This document shows positions 11,628 to 55,228 of a DNA stretch of 64,000 nt, one piece after another. The stretch is from Natronomonas salina (lineage in GTDB: Archaea; Halobacteriota; Halobacteria; Halobacteriales; Haloarculaceae): NCBI RefSeq assembly GCF_013391105.1, contig NZ_CP058335.1:1054001-1118000 (forward strand), given 5' to 3'. The notes under the pieces were generated by a model that saw nothing but the letters and a program-made list of their open reading frames with translations, did no database searches and was not told where the DNA came from. Both the position numbers and the translations under genes were made by a program. Position 1 is the first letter of the stretch; every line of letters starts with the position of its first letter.

Positions 11628-11795
11628 TGTACCCCACCGTTTCGGATGACAGTGGATAATACTTGCTGTTTCGAATCATACGCAGTAGTAATTCCATGGT
11701 CCGGCAGCCGACACGCCGTACCGGTGATTTTCGGCGCCGTCAGGCGGTCGAGCCTACCCGAAGCCTCTTATGACTACGGGCGCTACGCACCGGTG

Positions 11796-13009
11796 ATGAC
11801 TGACACTGTTGACGACGTCGACCTCCCCTACGAGGACGACGCGTCACAGCAGGAGAAAGTGGAGGCGCTGGAGGAGCGTCTCGAGATCCTCGAACAACAG
11901 AACGAGGAGATGCGGGACAAACTCCTCGACGCCAACGCCGAGAACAACAAGTACCAGCAGAAGCTCGAGCGGCTCACCCACGAGAACAAGAAGCTCAAGC
12001 AGTCGCCGCTGTTCGTCGCCACCGTCCAGGAACTCACGGACGAGGGCGTCATCATCAAGCAGCACGGCAACAACCAGGAGGCCCTCACCGAGGTCACCGA
12101 GGAGATGCGCGAGGACCTCGACCCCGACGACCGCGTGGCCGTCAACAACTCGCTGTCCGTCGTCAAGAAGCTCGACGACGAGACCGACGTCCGCGCTCGT
12201 GTGATGCAGGTCGAGCACTCCCCGGAGGTCTCCTACGAGGACATCGGCGGCATCGACGAGCAGATGGAGGAGGTACGAGAGACCGTCGAGATGCCCATCG
12301 AGAGTCCCGAGATGTTCGACGAGGTCGGCATCGACCCGCCGTCGGGCGTCCTCCTCTACGGGCCGCCGGGGACCGGCAAGACGATGCTGGCGAAGGCCGT
12401 CGCCAACCAGACCGACGCGACCTTCATCAAGATGGCCGGCTCCGAGCTGGTCCACAAGTTCATCGGCGAGGGCGCAAAGCTCGTCCGCGACCTCTTCGAG
12501 CTCGCCCGACAGCAGGAACCCGCCGTCGTCTTCATCGACGAGATCGACGCCATCGCGGCCAAGCGAACCGAGTCGAAGACCTCCGGCGACGCCGAGGTCC
12601 AGCGGACGATGATGCAGCTGCTCTCCGAGATGGACGGCTTCGAGGACCGCGGCCAGATCTCCATCATCGCGCCACCAACCGCTTCGACATGCTCGACCGC
12701 GCCATCCTCCGGCCCGGTCGCTTCGACCGCCTCATCGAGGTGCCCAAGCCCGACCAGGAGGGACGGGAGATCATCTTCGAGATCCACACCCGCGACATGA
12801 ACGTCGCAGACACCGTGGACTTCGCGGCGCTCGCCGAGATGGCCGACGAGGCCTCCGGCGCCGACGTCAAGGCGATCTGCACCGAGGCCGGGATGTACGC
12901 CATCCGCGACGACCGCCTCGAGGTCCAGATGGAGGACTTCGAGCACGCCTGGGAGAAGATCCAGCAGACCGACGACGAGGCCGACGAGGTCTCCCGGACG
13001 TTCGCCTAG
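11796..13009 (+). pseudogene. pan: Proteasome-activating nucleotidase (PAN), interrupted by a one-base frameshift
   Basis: PAN is the hexameric AAA+ unfoldase that feeds substrates to the archaeal 20S proteasome. The first frame starts MTDTVDDVDLPYEDD at 11796 and has the N-terminal coiled coil (about 18-70), OB domain, Walker A GPPGTGKT (189-196) and Walker B FIDEID (246-251). After residue about 292 the frame breaks: at 12669-12673 the sequence is gcgcc where gcggcc would keep Ala-Ala-Thr-Asn-Arg. The second region of homology and C-terminus (MLDRAILRPGRFD through VSRTFA) continue in the next frame to 13009. Restoring one G gives 404 residues, normal for PAN. The lost base may be a sequencing error or a true mutation. 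Unrepaired, the product would be 334 residues without the sensor and arginine-finger region. Confidence 0.93.
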
Positions 13010-13030
13010 CCACGTTCTGCACCTCCTTCG

Positions 13031-13049
13031 CGAGCGCCTGCGGCGCTCG
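13031..13049. repeat. Hairpin 21 bases after pan
   Basis: A perfect 8-base stem, cgagcgcc with ggcgctcg, around a tgc loop. No T-run follows, so it is not a classical terminator, but it may mark the transcript end. It belongs to the same style of short-loop hairpin as the downstream array. Confidence 0.5.
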
Positions 13050-13377
13050 TTCAGTCAGCGTGCCGGCTTCGCCGCCCACGTTAGAAGTTTGCGGACGGAG
13101 GCCGCGACCCAGGGCAAACTGGGGAAAAGCGACCACCACGACAGAGGCTGCGTAACAGACACCTGTCAAACACCCAACGTGTGTAGCCCTTCCTAAACAC
13201 CCGGGTTGTTACGTGTTGTCCTCCTATGGTATATCAGGGCGGGTGGGTATCCGTTAGACATTCAAGAGGCGGCAGGCAATACAATCCTCCTCCCTCATCC
13301 CCTCGCCCCCCCTGTCTTCGGACTATTCATTGCCTATACCGACCGGTACAACGATCGATGTCCAGCATTCGCCGGGC

Positions 13378-13622
13378 GGGGCGTTCGAAGAACGCCCCCG
13401 AGGCAGTTCGCGGCGACGAGGCCGGAGGTCGAGTCGCCGTAGCGCGAGCGGACTGGAGGCGGCCTGTGGGCCGCCAACCGGGTGCGGGCCGGAGGCCCGC
13501 AACCGAGCGACGTGGTCGTTCGAAAGCCGCCTGCGGCGACTTTCGTGATGACGAGAGAGCTTCGCTCTCTCGAACCACGGCGAAGCCGCTACGCGTGGGG
13601 CGTGTTCGGCGGCTCCGCTGCC
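13378..13622. repeat. Array of six short-loop hairpins
   Basis: Consecutive inverted repeats: 13378-13398 (9-base perfect stem ggggcgttc, loop gaa); 13458-13475 (7-base stem, loop tgtg); 13484-13500 (7-base stem gcgggcc, loop gga); 13521-13545 (11-base stem with one mismatch, loop tgc); 13552-13572 (9-base perfect stem cgagagagc, loop ttc); 13608-13622 (6-base stem with one wobble, loop tcc). The arms differ in sequence from one hairpin to the next, so this is not a tandem repeat of one unit. Five of the six loops are exactly three bases. Confidence 0.7.
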
Positions 13623-13649
13623 AAACCGCCGGAGCGTTCAAAAAGTGGT

Positions 13650-13793
13650 TTACAGCAGCGAGAAGATGAGCCACGGCAGTCCGAACAGCACGAGCGTCAT
13701 CGCGACGAGGACGACGCCGTAGGCGGCGAACGTCCCGGCGGCGGTGAACCAGGACGGGTGATCGTGTTCCTCCTTGATGTCGGCGACGTTCAT
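13650..13793 (-). CDS. 47-residue single-span membrane protein
   Basis: A short gene reading MNVADIKEEHDHPSWF at its start, then Thr-Ala-Ala-Gly and a long hydrophobic stretch ending LPWLIFSLL before TAA. There is one transmembrane helix (about residues 22-45) with an acidic/His N-terminal head. Third codon positions are nearly all G or C, unlike the non-coding DNA beside it, which supports real coding. It resembles small haloarchaeal membrane proteins of unknown role. It is followed by the hairpin array on its downstream side. Confidence 0.7.
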   Translation of the reverse strand: MNVADIKEEHDHPSWFTAAGTFAAYGVVLVAMTLVLFGLPWLIFSLL

Positions 13794-40730: not shown

Positions 40731-41957
40731 TCAGACGTCGGCCGCGGCTGCCTCTTCGGCCGGCATCGCCGCCGGGTCCTGGATCCAGAGGTCGCCGAAG
40801 AGGTCGTCCTGCTGGAGGCGCACCTGCCCGCGGTGGGCGAGGAACAGCACCCCGAGGAAGGAGTTCACGACGGAGCCGCCGGCCTCCCGAATCTCGGCGA
40901 ACAGCACCTCGTCGCGGCCCTGGTCGTAGTGGGACTGGAGCTCGACGTAGACGTCGTTGATGATGTCCTCCATGTGCTCGTCGTGGGCCGTCCCCGTGAC
41001 GTCGTCGGCCGTCGGCTCGTCGTCCATCCGGAAGTCGTCGTGGCCGTGGTAGTCCAGGGTCTGTGTCCCCCGGGAGAACCCCGACGGCGACTCCGAGGTG
41101 TCGTAGGTCCGGGACTCCTTCCACCAGGTGTCCCGCTCCCGCTCGCGGAGGTCCCGGACGAGTTCGTCCAGCGTCTCCGGCATCCCGCGGGCGGTCTTCC
41201 GCTCGATGCGGCGGTCCATCTCCCGCTCGAGCTTCTGGAACGGGTCGACCGCCGGTCCGCCCCCCTCCGGCCGCTCGCCCTCCGGCATCTCCCAGGGCTC
41301 GTCGGCCCACTCCTCCTCGTCCTGCTCGTCCTCGTCGACCCACATGACGTCGCTCTTCATGCGCAGCAGCACCGACGCGTAGAACAGCGCCCGTCCGCCG
41401 GTCCGGAGGTCCGAGCCGTCGAGCCGCGCGAGGAACTTGTCGGTGACCGTCACCACGTCGATGTCCCACGGGTCGATCTCGCCGTCCTCCGCAAGCTGGA
41501 CCAGCAGTTCGACGGGCTCGACCTCGTCGTCGTCCGACCGGGGCTCGGAGATGTCGAACTCCGAGAGGACGTCGTCCTGGTCGGACGCCTCGTCATCGAC
41601 TTCCTCTTGCTCTTCGCCGCCTGCCTCTGATTCGGTCGACCCGGTCAGCGCGTCCATCCCGTCGTCCGCCGCCTCCCGCTGCCGGCGTTCCTTCTCCGCG
41701 TCGTGGCTGGCGATGTTCAGCGGGATGTCGTCTGCGTCCTCGGAACCGTCGTCCTCGCTATCTCGCGGTTCACTCCGTTCGCCGCTCGATTCCTTCGGGG
41801 ACTCCCTGCGGTCGTCCCCGCTTGGCTCACGGGTCGCTTCGCTCCCCGTTCGCGTTTCCCGAGGATCTCCCCCCGGTCGATCCTCGCTATCTCGCGGCTC
41901 ACTTCGTTCACCGCTCGTTTTCTCCGAGGACTCCCTGCGGTCGTCCTCGCTAGTCAT
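40731..41957 (-). CDS. scpA: Segregation and condensation protein A
   Basis: A 408-residue kleisin that links the SMC head domains. The N-terminal kleisin core starts near VEPVELLVQLAEDGEIDPWD and contains a helix FLARLDGSDLRTGGRALFYA; the C-terminal winged helix spans about 330-395 (ELQSHYDQGRDEVLFAEIRE). The first 75 residues are unusual: a hydrophilic, partly duplicated stretch (SGERSEPRDSED occurs twice). The ATG at 41957 overlaps the smc stop codon by eight bases (41950-41957), which supports it as the start and indicates coupled translation. The N-terminal extension is described in the findings. Confidence 0.92.
   Translation of the reverse strand: MTSEDDRRESSEKTSGERSEPRDSEDRPGGDPRETRTGSEATREPSGDDRRESPKESSGERSEPRDSEDDGSEDADDIPLNIASHDAEKERRQREAADDGMDALTGSTESEAGGEEQEEVDDEASDQDDVLSEFDISEPRSDDDEVEPVELLVQLAEDGEIDPWDIDVVTVTDKFLARLDGSDLRTGGRALFYASVLLRMKSDVMWVDEDEQDEEEWADEPWEMPEGERPEGGGPAVDPFQKLEREMDRRIERKTARGMPETLDELVRDLRERERDTWWKESRTYDTSESPSGFSRGTQTLDYHGHDDFRMDDEPTADDVTGTAHDEHMEDIINDVYVELQSHYDQGRDEVLFAEIREAGGSVVNSFLGVLFLAHRGQVRLQQDDLFGDLWIQDPAAMPAEEAAAADV
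41753..41946 (-). repeat. Duplicated DNA segment in the 5' end of scpA
   Basis: Two copies of a 65-base unit, at about 41753-41817 and 41882-41946, differ at roughly nine positions and lie 129 bases apart, so the copies are in the same frame (43 residues). They encode the repeated SGERSEPRDSE segment. Between them is an 8-base inverted repeat, cgaggatc (41860-41867) and gatcctcg (41879-41886). The layout resembles an intergenic repeat captured into the reading frame. Confidence 0.6.
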
Positions 41958-44900
41958 CGGCCGGCACCCCCTCGGCCGACAGGTCGATGCCAGTCACCGC
42001 CGAGACGTTGTTGTCCTGCATCGTCACGCCGATGGCGCGCTCGGAGCGCTCCAGCAGCGCCGAGCGGTGAGAGACGACGACGAACTGGGCGTCGCCGGCC
42101 AGCTCCTCGACCATCTCGCCGACCATCTCGGCGTTGGCGGCGTCGAGGAACGCGTCGACCTCGTCGAGCGCGTAGAACGGCGCCGGGTTGAACCGCTGGA
42201 TGGCGAAGACGAACGCCAGTGCGGTCAGCGACTTCTCGCCGCCGGACATCGCGTCGAGCCGCTGGACGGGCTTGTCGCCCGGCTGTGCCTTCATCGTCAG
42301 CCCGCCCTCGAAGGGGTCCTCGGGGTCGTCGAGGACCAGCTCGCCGGTGCCGCCGGAGAGCCGCGAGAAGATGTCCTGGAACTGCTCGTTGATGCCCTCG
42401 TAGGCCTCCATGAACGTCTCCTTCTTCCGGGCCTCGTACTGCTCGATGCGGTCGCGGATCTCGTCGGCCTCCTCGACAAGCGTGTCCCGCTTCTCCTCGA
42501 GGTCCGCGAGCTCGTCGGCCACCTCGTCGTACTCGTCGATGGCGAGCATGTTCACCGGCTCCAGGGCCGACATCTCGGCCTCGAGCCGCTGGATCTCGGA
42601 CTTGACGGTCTCGTGGTCGGGGATCTCCTCGGGGTCGTACTCCTCGACCTGCGAGGACAGCTCGTCGATCTCCCACTCCAGGCGGTTCTCGGCGTCCTCG
42701 AGGTCCTCAAGCTTCGACTGCACGCGGGAGACCTTCTCCTTCTGCTCGTCGCGGGTCTCCTTGGCGTCGGCGAGCTCGTCTTTCAGCTCCTCGCGGTCGC
42801 CCTTGAGGTCGGCCAGCTCGTCCTCGAGCTCCTCGACGGCGGCTTCCTTCTCCTCGAGTCTGTCCTCCTGCTCCTCGATCTCGTCCTCGAGGTCGGCGAC
42901 GGCCTCCTCGGCCTTGGCCTTCTTGTTCTGGGCGGCCTCGATGTCGTCGTGGAGCTCCTCGATGGCCTCCTCGGCGTACTGCTTCTCCAGCTGTAGCTCG
43001 TTGAGTGCGCCGTCGAGGTCGTCCATCCGCTCCTCGAGGTCCGCGATCTCCTCGCGGATCGCCTCGGCCTCGCTGGTCAGCTCCGGGATGGCGGAGTCCT
43101 GCAGCTCCTGTTCGAGGTCGTCGATCTCCTCCTGGACCGCGGCGATCTCGTCGTCCTTGGCCGCGATGTCGGCCTCGATGGCCTCCATCTCCTCGGCGAC
43201 CTCCTCGCGCTGGGCCTCGATCTCCTCGAGTTCGTCCTCGAGGCGCTCGATGCGGTCTTCGACCTCCTCGCGGTCCTTCTCGACGGAGGCGACGTCGGTC
43301 TCGATGTCGCGGACCTGCTCGGCGGCGTCGGACTGCCGGTCTCGGGCGTCGTCCAGGCGCTCCTCGACGTCCCGGACGTCCGACCGCAGGGACTGCTTCT
43401 CGTCCTCCAGCTCCGTGATCTGTTCGGCGACCCGCTCGAGCTGGCCCTTCCCGCTCTTCGTGAACGAGTAGCGGCTGCCGGACTGGGAGCCGCCGGTCAT
43501 CGCGCCGGACTTCTCGACGAGGTCGCCGTCCAGCGTGACCAGCCGGAAGTCGCCCATCAGGTCCCGGGCGGTCTCCATGTCCTCGACGACGAGGGTGTCG
43601 CCGACGACGTAGGAGAAGACGCTCTCGTACTGGGAGTCGAAGTCGATGAGGTTGTACGCGAAGTCGACGACGCCCGGCAGGTCCGGCGCCGACGGCAGCG
43701 ACCGGTTCTGCATCTTCGTCATCGGCAGGAACGTCGCCCGGCCGGCGTTCCGCGACTTCAGGTGCTCGATGCAGCGCTGGCCGACGCCGTCGTCGTCGAC
43801 GACGACGTTCGCCAGGCGACCGCCCGCCGCGGTCTCGCAGGCCGTGGCGTACTGGGAGTCCACGCCGCCGAGCTGTCCGACCGTCCCGTGGACGCCGTTC
43901 ATGTCCGCGTTCAGGATGGTCGTCACCGCCCGGCCGTAGGAGGTGTCGCCGCTCTCGCCGGCGCGGGCCTCGAGCTCGGCGTACTCCTGCTGCTTCGCCG
44001 AGAGCTCGTCGTCGACGTCGTCGAGGTCCTGCTGGAGTTCGCGTTTCTCCTCGCGGAGGTCCTCGACGACGCTCGTGATGCTGTCGCGGTTCTGCTCGGC
44101 CTTCCGCAGCTCCTTCTGGAGGTCCTCGAGTTCGGCGTCGAGCTCCGGCAGCTTCGACTCGGCCTCCTCGATCTCCTCCTGCTTCTCGCGCTCCTCGCGG
44201 GAGCGCCGCCGCGACTCGTCGAGCAGGCGGTCCTGCTCGCGCTGGAGCTCGTTCTTCTCGTCCTTCAGCTCCTGGATGGCCTCGCGGTTCTCCTCGAGGG
44301 CGTCCCGGACCTCCTCGTACTCCGTGTCGACGGCCTCGATCTCGGCTTCGACCTCCGCGAGTTCGTCCTCCTTCTCCTCGACGTCGGCCTTCAGCGAGGA
44401 CTTCTCGACCTTCTTGTTGCGGATGTCGGCCTCGAGCTCCTCGACGGTCTCCTGCTTGCGGTCGACCTGGACGAAGGCCTGCCGGCGCTTGTTCTCGGCC
44501 TCCTCGATGCGCTCCTCCTCGGACTCGATCCTGTCCTCGAGGCGGGCGATCTCGCCTTTGATCTCCTCGATCTCGCGCTTGATGGCGAGCTGTTCGTCCT
44601 CGCCCTTCCGCTCGATCTCGGCGTTGAGGTCCGCGAGGTCCTCCTCGAGGCGGGTGACCTTCCCCTGCCGCTCGTCGAGCTCGCGCTGGAGGTCCTGCAG
44701 CTTCTCGCGTTTGACCTCGAGCTTCTCGCGGGTCTCCTCGAGTTCCTCGCGCTTGTCCTCGAGTTCCGCGGCCTTCAGGTAGCCCTCGTACTCCTCCTTC
44801 TGCTCCTTGAGGTCCTTGTACTGGAGGGCGGTCTCCCGCTCGTCCTCGAGCTGTTCGAGGCGCTCTTCCTTCTCCTCGATGCGGAGCTCCGCCTCGTCGA

Positions 44901-45528
44901 CGCGCTCCTGGACGACCTCCAGCTCCTCGAAGGCGTCCTCCTTCTTGGCGTCGAACTGCGCGACGCCGGCGATCTCGTCGATGATCGCCCGGCGGGAGCC
45001 GGGCGTCATCGTGATGATCTCGGTGACGTCGCCCTGCATCACGACGTTGTACCCCTCGGGCGTGACGCCGGCCTGCGAGAGCAGATCTCGGATGTCCGAG
45101 AGGTTCACCGAGCGACCGTTGAGGTAGTAGTAGGAGTAGTAGGTGTCCTCGTCGGTCTGCTTGACCCGCCGACGGATGGAAATCTCGTCGACGTCGCCGA
45201 CCTTCTCGGAGCCGGCGGCGGAGACGACCTGCTCGCGGGCGAGCGTGCCGTCGGCGTTGTCGAGGATGACCTCGACGGACGCCTCGCGCTCGCCGGCGAA
45301 GTCGTCGGCCTCGTCGTCGTCGCTCGGGTTGTAGATGAGGTCCGTCAGCTTGTCCGCGCGGATGCCCGACGTGCGGGCCAATCCGAGCGCGAACAGGATG
45401 GAGTCGATGATGTTCGATTTGCCCGATCCGTTCGGTCCGCTGATCGTGGTGAAATCCTCGTAGAAGGGGATTCGCGTCTTGCGGCCGAAGCTCTTGAAGT
45501 TGTCCAGGACGAGCTCTTTGATGTGCAT
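41950..45528 (-). CDS. smc: Chromosome segregation protein SMC
   Basis: A 1192-residue SMC ATPase. Walker A GPNGSGKSNIIDS is near residue 32. Two long coiled coils flank the hinge (about 520-670, with GTVGQLGGVDSQYATACETA). The C-terminal head carries MSGGEKSLTALAF and Walker B FYALDEVDAFLDAAN. It organises and compacts the chromosome with ScpA. No ScpB-like gene is seen here. The gene follows a small coiled-coil protein gene with a 26-base gap, and its stop overlaps the scpA start. Confidence 0.97.
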   Translation of the reverse strand: MHIKELVLDNFKSFGRKTRIPFYEDFTTISGPNGSGKSNIIDSILFALGLARTSGIRADKLTDLIYNPSDDDEADDFAGEREASVEVILDNADGTLAREQVVSAAGSEKVGDVDEISIRRRVKQTDEDTYYSYYYLNGRSVNLSDIRDLLSQAGVTPEGYNVVMQGDVTEIITMTPGSRRAIIDEIAGVAQFDAKKEDAFEELEVVQERVDEAELRIEEKEERLEQLEDERETALQYKDLKEQKEEYEGYLKAAELEDKREELEETREKLEVKREKLQDLQRELDERQGKVTRLEEDLADLNAEIERKGEDEQLAIKREIEEIKGEIARLEDRIESEEERIEEAENKRRQAFVQVDRKQETVEELEADIRNKKVEKSSLKADVEEKEDELAEVEAEIEAVDTEYEEVRDALEENREAIQELKDEKNELQREQDRLLDESRRRSREEREKQEEIEEAESKLPELDAELEDLQKELRKAEQNRDSITSVVEDLREEKRELQQDLDDVDDELSAKQQEYAELEARAGESGDTSYGRAVTTILNADMNGVHGTVGQLGGVDSQYATACETAAGGRLANVVVDDDGVGQRCIEHLKSRNAGRATFLPMTKMQNRSLPSAPDLPGVVDFAYNLIDFDSQYESVFSYVVGDTLVVEDMETARDLMGDFRLVTLDGDLVEKSGAMTGGSQSGSRYSFTKSGKGQLERVAEQITELEDEKQSLRSDVRDVEERLDDARDRQSDAAEQVRDIETDVASVEKDREEVEDRIERLEDELEEIEAQREEVAEEMEAIEADIAAKDDEIAAVQEEIDDLEQELQDSAIPELTSEAEAIREEIADLEERMDDLDGALNELQLEKQYAEEAIEELHDDIEAAQNKKAKAEEAVADLEDEIEEQEDRLEEKEAAVEELEDELADLKGDREELKDELADAKETRDEQKEKVSRVQSKLEDLEDAENRLEWEIDELSSQVEEYDPEEIPDHETVKSEIQRLEAEMSALEPVNMLAIDEYDEVADELADLEEKRDTLVEEADEIRDRIEQYEARKKETFMEAYEGINEQFQDIFSRLSGGTGELVLDDPEDPFEGGLTMKAQPGDKPVQRLDAMSGGEKSLTALAFVFAIQRFNPAPFYALDEVDAFLDAANAEMVGEMVEELAGDAQFVVVSHRSALLERSERAIGVTMQDNNVSAVTGIDLSAEGVPADD

Positions 45529-53675: not shown

Positions 53676-54980
53676 ATGGAGAACCGCACGTACACCGCGG
53701 ATGCCGAGCCGGGCGATTCGGTCACCGTCGCCGGCTGGGTCCACGAAGTCCGCGACCTCGGTGGGATCGCCTTCCTCATTCTGCGCGACACCACCGGGCG
53801 GATCCAGGTGAAGTTCGAGAAGGAGGAGATGGACGACGACCTCGTGGAGACGGGACTGGAGGTCGCCCGGGAATCGGTCATCTCCGTGACCGGCCAGGTC
53901 GAGGAGGAGCCCCGCGCCCCGACCGGCGTGGAGGTCACGCCGGAGTCCGTCGAGGTCGTCTCGGAGGCCGACACGGAACTGCCGCTTGACCCCTCCGGGA
54001 AGGTCGACGCCGAACTCTCGACGCGGCTCGACAACCGGACGCTCGACCTCCGCCGCGAGGAGGGCCAGGCCATCTTCGAGATCCGCGCCGAGGTGCTCCG
54101 CGGTGTTCGGGAGGCGTTCCGCGAGGCCGACGCTACCGAGATCAACACGCCGAAGATCGTCGCCACCGGCACCGAGGGCGGGACGGAGCTGTTCCCGATC
54201 ACGTACTTCGGCCGCGAAGCGTTCATGAACCAGAGCCCGCAGCTGTTCAAGCAGCTCATCGCGGGCTCGAACCTCGAGCGCGTCTTCGAGATCGGCCCCA
54301 TCTTCCGCGCCGAGGAGCACAACACGCCGCGACACCTCAACGAGGCGACCTCCATCGACTTCGAGGGCGCCTTCTGCGACCACCACGACGCGATGGACGT
54401 CTGCGAGTCCGTCGTCGTCTCCGCCTACGAGGCCGTCGCCGAGAACTGCGAGACGCAGCTAGAGGCCCTCGACCTCGCCGAGGAGTTCGAGCCGCCGGAG
54501 ACGCCGTTCCCCCGGCTCTCCTACGAGGAGGCCATCGAGCGCATCAACGCGACCGGCGAGCTCGACGAGCAGCTGGTCTGGGGCGACGACCTGCCGACGG
54601 AGGGCGAGAAGGCCCTCGGCGACGACGTCGGCGGCCACTACTTCATCACCGACTGGCCCGCGGAGATCAAGCCGTTCTATATCATGGACCACGACGACGA
54701 CGCGGAGCTGTCGACGGGCTTCGACATGATGCACCCGCGGATGGAGCTCGTCTCGGGCGGCCAGCGCGAGCACCGCCGCGAGCAGCTCATCGAGGGCTTC
54801 GAACAGCAGGGGCTCGACCCGGACGCCTTCGAGTACTACACCAAGATGTTCCAGTACGGCATCCCGCCGCACGCCGGCTGGGGCCTCGGCGCCGAGCGCC
54901 TCCTGATGACGATGCTCGACCTGGGGAACATCCGCGAGGCGGTGCTGTTCCCGCGAGACCGGCAGCGTCTGAGCCCGTAG
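53676..54980 (+). CDS. aspS: Aspartyl-tRNA synthetase (archaeal type)
   Basis: A 434-residue class II synthetase. An N-terminal OB-fold (about 1-110, [19 protein letters not shown]) binds the anticodon. Motif 2 is in [19 protein letters not shown] and motif 3 in [17 protein letters not shown]. The archaeal enzyme may charge both tRNA-Asp and tRNA-Asn; GatB in this window would complete the indirect Asn route. The C-terminus [12 protein letters not shown] is the usual haloarchaeal ending. The 3' end is partly duplicated downstream (see the repeat at 54957-55056). Confidence 0.97.
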
Positions 54981-55056
54981 GGCGAAGACGTTGGGTACCA
55001 GCGAGGCGCACGGAGTGCGTCTCGCAGGACCGGCAGCGCCTGTCGCCGTAGGCGAC
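54957..55056 (+). repeat. Duplicated aspS 3' end with covarying stop-codon hairpins
   Basis: The codons for Asp-Arg-Gln-Arg-Leu-Ser-Pro and TAG occur at 54957-54980 (the true aspS end) and again at 55028-55051. The copies differ at four bases, all synonymous. Each copy places the stop in the loop of a small hairpin: gccc/gggc around gta at 54973-54983, and gtcgcc/ggcgac around gta at 55042-55056. Between them is an 11-base stem hairpin with one wobble (55001-55025, loop gga). No other coding sequence is present. Confidence 0.65.
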
Positions 55057-55228
55057 GGCGCACCCGTCGGGCGGGGACTCAGACGATACAGTCTGCTCGC
55101 AGTCTCTCTTTCCACAGACATCGACCGAGAGCGACCGCACCATCGACCCACCGACAAAAGGACCGGCATCCGCTGTTCCGTGTCCCTCAATGTACCTCGA
55201 TGGTAACGAGTGGTATTTCGGGGCAAGG

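Follow-up and report, generated by a model that had tools for sequence, protein, structure and literature searches.

Two convergent genes face each other at this locus of the window, by which we mean the whole 64-kb stretch of DNA that was analysed. The gene on the plus strand is pan, coding for the proteasome-activating nucleotidase, whose 3′ part (12689–13009) ends in a stop codon at 13007–13009. On the minus strand lies a gene for a small membrane protein (13650–13793, stop codon 13650–13652), a neighbour of pan that is kept in many species. The reading frame of pan is split by a frameshift at about 12660–12690, and the ORFs 11646–12800 and 12689–13009 jointly encode the protein. The frameshift site reads IIAPPTAS where IIAATNRFD is expected, which could reflect either a genuine break or a mistake in the assembly. 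The space between the two genes holds an array of hairpins at 13378–13622, as the initial annotation had correctly placed it.

A stem search of positions 13378–13622 revealed four perfect stems of 7–9 bp, located at 13378–13398 (loop GAA), 13458–13475 (loop TGTG), 13483–13501 (loop GGA) and 13552–13572 (loop TTC). When one mismatch was tolerated, an extra stem with a 3-nt loop appeared at 13521–13545 and the stem at 13483–13501 lengthened to 13479–13505. A further stem (13412–13438, loop GGA) is broken by GA/GA mismatches. The earlier count of six stems, five of them with 3-nt loops, is therefore correct provided that imperfect stems are included. Dinucleotide shuffling of the same 245 bases gave a mean of 0.26 perfect stems of at least 7 bp, and four such stems were reached in none of 1000 shuffles, which rules out chance at high GC content as the source of the array. 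Its stem density is unsurpassed by any other 245-bp stretch of the window. Folding z-scores of the region 13364–13648 were about −5 for RNA, on either strand, and for DNA.

Searching the genome with the array region returned 21 DNA matches in the same genome, mostly to 13364–13475, and a covariance model matched positions 13364–13489 with 60.4 bits (E 5e-15). The region 13364–13648 belongs to a dispersed family of hairpin cassettes, of which it represents a decayed copy. Aligned copies define a canonical element of the order AGCATCCGC[H1]GCGGTTC[H2]GTAGC[H3]CGCGCATATTTTCCCCA(A/C)GTTTTTGCC[H4]GTGCAAAAAGTGG, about 180–300 bp long, in which four hairpins are joined by near-invariant linkers. H2 has the form GGCGAC-GAG..CGA-GTCGCC and H3 is closed by variable GC-rich arms. 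Palindromes are present near the termini, terminal inverted repeats are absent, and the cassette is too short to code. T-tracts occur on both strands: a T5 tract follows the stop codon on the sense strand of the gene (CCACTTTTTGC), and the other strand carries TATTTTCCCCAAGTTTTTGC. The family is apparently undescribed. Among papers open without subscription, which yielded PATEs, SMRs, REPs and T-tract terminators, no description of it was found. A known RNA family was ruled out as its identity, since the window gave no curated Rfam match at gathering thresholds and six element loci gave chance-level matches only (E≤1).

The window copy is of type 1 and lies on the plus strand. It retains the left end, H1, H2, GTAGC, H3 and the right end. 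The left end AGCATTCGC and H1 (loop GAA) occupy 13364–13404, in agreement with the consensus of copies. H2 at 13412–13438 reads GGCGAC-GA-GGCC-GGA-GGTC-GA-GTCGCC, with tandem G·A mismatches evident from sequence, consensus and pair counts, and is followed by the invariant GTAGC joint, while the tip of H3 reads GGCGGCC-TGTG-GGCCGCC (13458–13475). Two hairpin modules are inserted downstream. Module B has the form CGGGTTGCGGGC..GCCCGCAACCG..GACGTGG..CCACGC and is also found within H3 or H4 of four other copies (L097, L107, L131, L141). Its first hairpin, CGGGTGCGGGCC-GGA-GGCCCGCAACCG, lies at 13479–13505, and its arm GACGTGG..CCACG.. at 13509–13598 encloses module C with the hairpins 13521–13545 and 13552–13572. 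Module C interrupts module B in L141 as it does in the window copy, whereas L097 represents the uninterrupted site. Comparison with L141 and the consensus identified an H4 remnant at 13600–13639, whose preceding CGCGCATATTTTCCCCAAGTTTTTGCC joint of intact copies is lost. This missing piece, CGCGCATATTTTCC..TTTTTGCC, is the left-strand T5 joint. The copy closes with the right end AAAAAGTGG at 13640–13648, 1 bp from the stop codon of the membrane-protein gene; read 3′ of this stop it is CCACTTTTT, and its five A and GTGG are found unchanged in 41 of 41 copies.

The pan stop codon is abutted by another cassette (minus strand, 13010–13130), which runs the opposite way and has decayed further. It comprises CCACGTTCTGCACCTCC, a hairpin at 13031–13049 and GTTCAGTC, and positions 13010–13056 match the H4 ends of intact copies, e.g. 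C1:1521283–1521329. The hairpin at 13031–13049 had been noted before as similar to those of the array, and its presence was confirmed. An intact cassette is found at the pan 3′ end in five genomes (G002, G003, G004, G010, G016), and none in several others (e.g. G012, more distant relatives of G016, G018).

Conservation within the family is concentrated in the joints. In a set of 41 simple copies, GTAGC, GTGG, both the T5 and the A5 tract and most bases of the joints do not vary. The arms of the hairpins are almost free to change, yet pairing is kept, with 97.2% of cells forming a pair. Both sides were changed in 144 cells as compared with 35 after shuffling, and double changes occurred in 17 pairs. 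The covariation score of 0.270 (shuffled: 0.080) was reached in 0 of 500 shuffles, and slid structures scored at most 0.059. The unrelated arm sequences pointed out by the initial annotation are thus real and a property of the whole family, in which joints are fixed and hairpins exchangeable; in the window copy the nesting of modules B and C accounts for the six unrelated arms.

Intact cassettes lie in fixed orientation 0–10 bp after a stop codon, usually within a convergent gene pair. In 76 of 105 copies (72%), a long ORF on the opposite strand converges on the cassette and has its stop codon at most 12 bp, mostly 0–6 bp, from the right end; random positions in the same loci gave 1.2%. This automatic test was failed by about 28% of copies, several of which show a duplicated end or a stop that belongs to a short gene. 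On the left flank, a convergent gene was present within 400 bp in 71 of 105 copies, and only four had a stop codon at most 10 bp from the left end. Many convergent pairs carry two cassettes back to back, one for each gene (L095, L088, L090, L182, L186). The initial annotation had offered four options without choosing among them. The extended transcript-end region was largely right, because the array belongs to a dispersed family with a fixed place at gene 3′ ends, and so were the small palindromic repeats, given that smaller hairpin modules are inserted into this copy. A local graveyard of repeats is ruled out, since joints and hairpins in this order recur by the dozen within single genomes, and a free-standing structured RNA is unsupported by the left flank and by Rfam, as discussed below.

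Covariance-model searches, on which the copy numbers rest, detected 42 copies in the genome of the window and 0–84 across 20 Natronomonas genomes, and a search of this genus with the window region returned hundreds of matches. Under strict filters, 108 of 293 sampled Halobacteriales genomes and 34 of 87 genera contained matches. A fuller search of 16 genomes gave 2–32 copies each. In 28 copies read from other genera the block order is that of Natronomonas and the joints differ in detail (GGAGGAGTGCTTTTTCCCCAAGTTTTTGCC). A stop codon was found within about 5 bp in 22–23 of these 28 copies; as these were chosen from the best matches, the stop-adjacent share may be lower among weak matches.

Comparison of orthologous gene ends demonstrated the replacement of whole hairpins between close relatives, with joints and neighbouring genes nearly unchanged. 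Where coding flanks were 93–97% identical, the joints GGTTC, GTAGC, TATTTT..TTTTTG and GTGCAAAAAGTGG showed identities of 0.91–1.0, and H2, H3 or H4 frequently differed throughout, with perfect pairing in each version. H1 values from automatic parsing were left out of this comparison. In the pair L079/L086, H1 and H4 are identical or nearly so and H2 and H3 differ. The loop of H4 is flipped from TCC to GGA between the close orthologues L186 and L196. In the closest trio of genomes, one and the same gene end is occupied by type 1, type 2 (..GGGTCGTTTTTCCCCAAGTTTTTGCGAC..GTAAAAAGTGG) or type 3 (..GTGTCTTTTTCATCGAAGTTTTTGCC..GTGCAAAAAGTTCG). The left flank, H1 and the right end are common to L200 and L295 and the middle is replaced; the same kind of subfamily swap was seen in L190/L287 and L199/L294. 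An intergenic block of two back-to-back cassettes is inverted in L198 (G016) relative to L187 (G002) and L192 (G003), and its breakpoints coincide with the outer cassette ends. Identical hairpins in different slots were more frequent within than between genomes (H1: 3.1% versus 1.1%; H4: 1.7% versus 0.3%; the pairs are not independent). Block replacement, subfamily swaps, inversion and within-genome sharing fit recombination or gene conversion better than slow compensatory substitution.

Structural signatures were used to examine which strand folds. C(GNA)G triloops made up 83 of 138, and the plus strand contained 87 GNA and 18 TNC triloops as compared with 4 and 2 in shuffled sequences. Tandem GA/GA mismatches with Watson-Crick pairs on either side occurred 212 times versus 16 times after shuffling, a 13-fold enrichment, and TC/TC was not enriched. 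The GNA loops and tandem G·A pairs mark the plus strand as the folded one. Single mismatches inside stems (8 G·T, 5 A·C) are too few to decide the strand alone. The plus strand of the cassette is the antisense strand of the adjoining gene, so it is not for the mRNA of that gene that the hairpins are designed. Loops of the d(GCGNAGC) type are unusually stable in single-stranded DNA, and tandem G·A pairs are stable in both RNA and single-stranded DNA. The tetraloops preferred by structured RNAs, GNRA and UNCG, are almost missing from the cassettes, where triloops dominate. We lean, tentatively, towards a fold that acts at the DNA rather than the RNA level.

The region 13364–13648 is a decayed member of a family of haloarchaeal multi-hairpin 3′-end cassettes that probably serve as bidirectional terminators and are probably diversified by recombination between copies. 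From two features, the T-tracts and the position, we infer a function as bidirectional terminator and insulator: the invariant sense T5 tract after the stop codon and the T-tracts after H1–H3 on the other strand suggest termination in both directions. The adjacent gene would be stopped at once by the T5 tract directly after its stop codon, and its transcripts would have their 3′ ends in CCACTTTTT, no more than about 15 nt past the stop. Transcription arriving from the facing gene would be halted after hairpins H1–H3 by the T-tracts on the other strand, so that antisense read-through would end at TTTTCCCCAAGTTTTT. The hairpins may be roadblocks, targets of a DNA-binding factor or merely the recombination-prone part. 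Hairpins would be exchanged when dispersed copies recombine, or undergo gene conversion, at their shared joints, a process perhaps helped by hairpin-stalled replication. The closest model for the termination step is the archaeal T5C terminator, a T-tract with about 95% termination in vivo in Haloferax volcanii (PMC7237163). A T5 tract likewise lies 3′ of the gene in the cassette, 0–10 bp after the stop codon, and was present in 41 of 41 copies. Unlike the tested T5C tract, however, it is followed by G, and it forms part of a modular, dispersed element whose hairpins vary and which has T-tracts on both strands. As most genes lack a cassette, it is not the general terminator.

Another reading, conceivable but unlikely, treats the cassette as a selfish single-stranded-DNA mobile element of the REP or PATE kind. 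A Y1 or other HUH enzyme would recognise the hairpins and insert them beside gene ends, and the terminator effect would be a by-product making such insertions tolerable. The patchy copy number within one genus, the nested insertion of modules B and C and the invariant GTAG within the cassette are consistent with this, as are the C(GNA)G triloops and tandem GA/GA mismatches on one strand only, which are known stabilisers of single-stranded DNA hairpins. The transposases themselves argue against it. Cassette number does not follow Y1 transposase (PF01797; rho −0.14, 20 Natronomonas genomes) or TnpB (rho −0.48, nine genomes, not significant). Two genomes rich in TnpB have few cassettes (G001 and G007, 27 and 37 TnpB versus 0 and 1 cassettes), and G004 shows the reverse (3 versus 84). 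There are also genomes with 25–37 copies and no Y1 hit, the assemblies of which are incomplete. The complete set of element landmarks was absent from 20 tnpA and 30 tnpB loci, which gave a few single-landmark matches with one mismatch. With cassette ends absent from these loci and copy number not following the transposases, an IS200/IS605 derivative was rejected. Among close orthologues, including the closest trio, no clean empty site was seen; alternative subfamilies or rearranged neighbours were found instead. Spread by viruses or plasmids was rejected as well. A plasmid collection including haloarchaeal plasmids contained no cassette copy, and viral contigs did not match the Natronomonas joint. 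A looser joint, CTTTTTCCCCAMGTTTTTGC, had one exact match in a viral contig (IMGVR_UViG_3300009177_000030; L304 642–661), which may be due to chance.

The cassettes resemble PATEs of Haloquadratum walsbyi (PMC3119063) in being short, non-coding, haloarchaeal and present in many copies, with near-terminal palindromes, no terminal inverted repeats and smaller elements inserted into them. PATEs, however, share their ends with IS605-type transposons, which the cassettes do not at the loci tested, and cassettes differ in abutting stop codons in fixed orientation and in having four exchangeable hairpins. Modules B and C are comparable to SMR-A of H. walsbyi, which also sits inside the palindromes of a larger element, the PATE (PMC3119063), and like it they are short and palindromic; module B measures about 55 bp with two hairpins and SMR-A about 110 bp, a comparison made by description rather than sequence. 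Bacterial REPs and BIMEs with their RAYT transposases (PMC3733652) are likewise extragenic palindromes mostly downstream of genes, multi-copy and equipped with GTAG. REPs are 20–40 bp long with a terminal GTAG (PMC3733652), whereas cassettes span 180–300 bp with four hairpins and an internal, invariant GTAG, and no linked transposase was found for them. The cassettes are thus palindromic, extragenic and multi-copy like PATEs and REPs but fail the transposase links that define both, their numbers not following those of Y1 transposase or TnpB and the full set of their ends being absent from the transposase loci. In integron attC sites the ends pair across the site; the cassette ends do not, the left one pairing with columns 42–45 and 152–153 and the right one with columns 163–177.

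We consider it improbable that the plus strand encodes a conserved structured RNA or antisense 3′ RNA, acting in trans or protecting mRNA ends. Strong covariation, the presence of every structural signature on one strand and an excess of G·U over A·C deviations in the plus-strand pair table would fit such an RNA. The left flank, however, showed no conserved promoter-like sequence, Rfam gave no match, and hairpins are replaced wholesale rather than by point changes. The near absence of GNRA and UNCG tetraloops and a fixed point at the stop codon of a gene on the opposite strand also speak against it. Finally, a neutral by-product, i.e. hairpin-prone intergenic DNA that owes its perfect pairing only to template switching during replication (quasi-palindrome correction), would account for the loop flip in H4 and the hairpin turnover as DNA-level correction, but is highly improbable because the near-invariant unpaired joints, the T5 tracts, the fixed distance to the stop codon and the single orientation, found in several genera, need selection or site specificity.

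A broader proposal, rather doubtful, is a DNA-hairpin cassette system common to the haloarchaea. A dedicated recombinase might recognise C(GNA)G, tandem-G·A hairpins of single-stranded DNA and swap, flip and nest hairpin modules in fixed slots immediately behind stop codons, so that 3′ ends and terminators are constantly rewritten. If the main reading of a terminator cassette family is true, many haloarchaeal genes share a swappable 3′-end module, and the GAGCGAACGAAGTGAGCG-like palindromes in which these genomes abound would be explained. The cassettes would offer haloarchaeal genetics a natural series of bidirectional terminators. Perfectly covarying hairpins that arise by block exchange and not by point compensation would be a warning for covariation-based RNA discovery. 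The immediate question for a specialist is which enzyme, if any, handles the hairpins.

Several further loci deserve mention. Two genomes with 1–3 copies (G006 and G017) share one cassette in an orthologous place with no evident stop codon adjacent (L201, L202); H1 and H4 agree between them and H3 is replaced, though donor copies are few in either genome. Within the window, more C(GNA)G hairpins, GCGAGGCGCAC-GGA-GTGCGTCTCGC and GCGCCTGTCGCC-GTA-GGCGACGGCGC, lie at 54981–55065 after the stop codon of the ORF 53676–54980. They did not match the cassette covariance model and possibly represent another family or a remnant. The minus-strand ORF 41950–45528 is directly followed by CGAGGACGACCGCAGGGAGTCCTCGG (window positions 41910–41950), a tandem-G·A hairpin with a GCA loop in cassette-like style.
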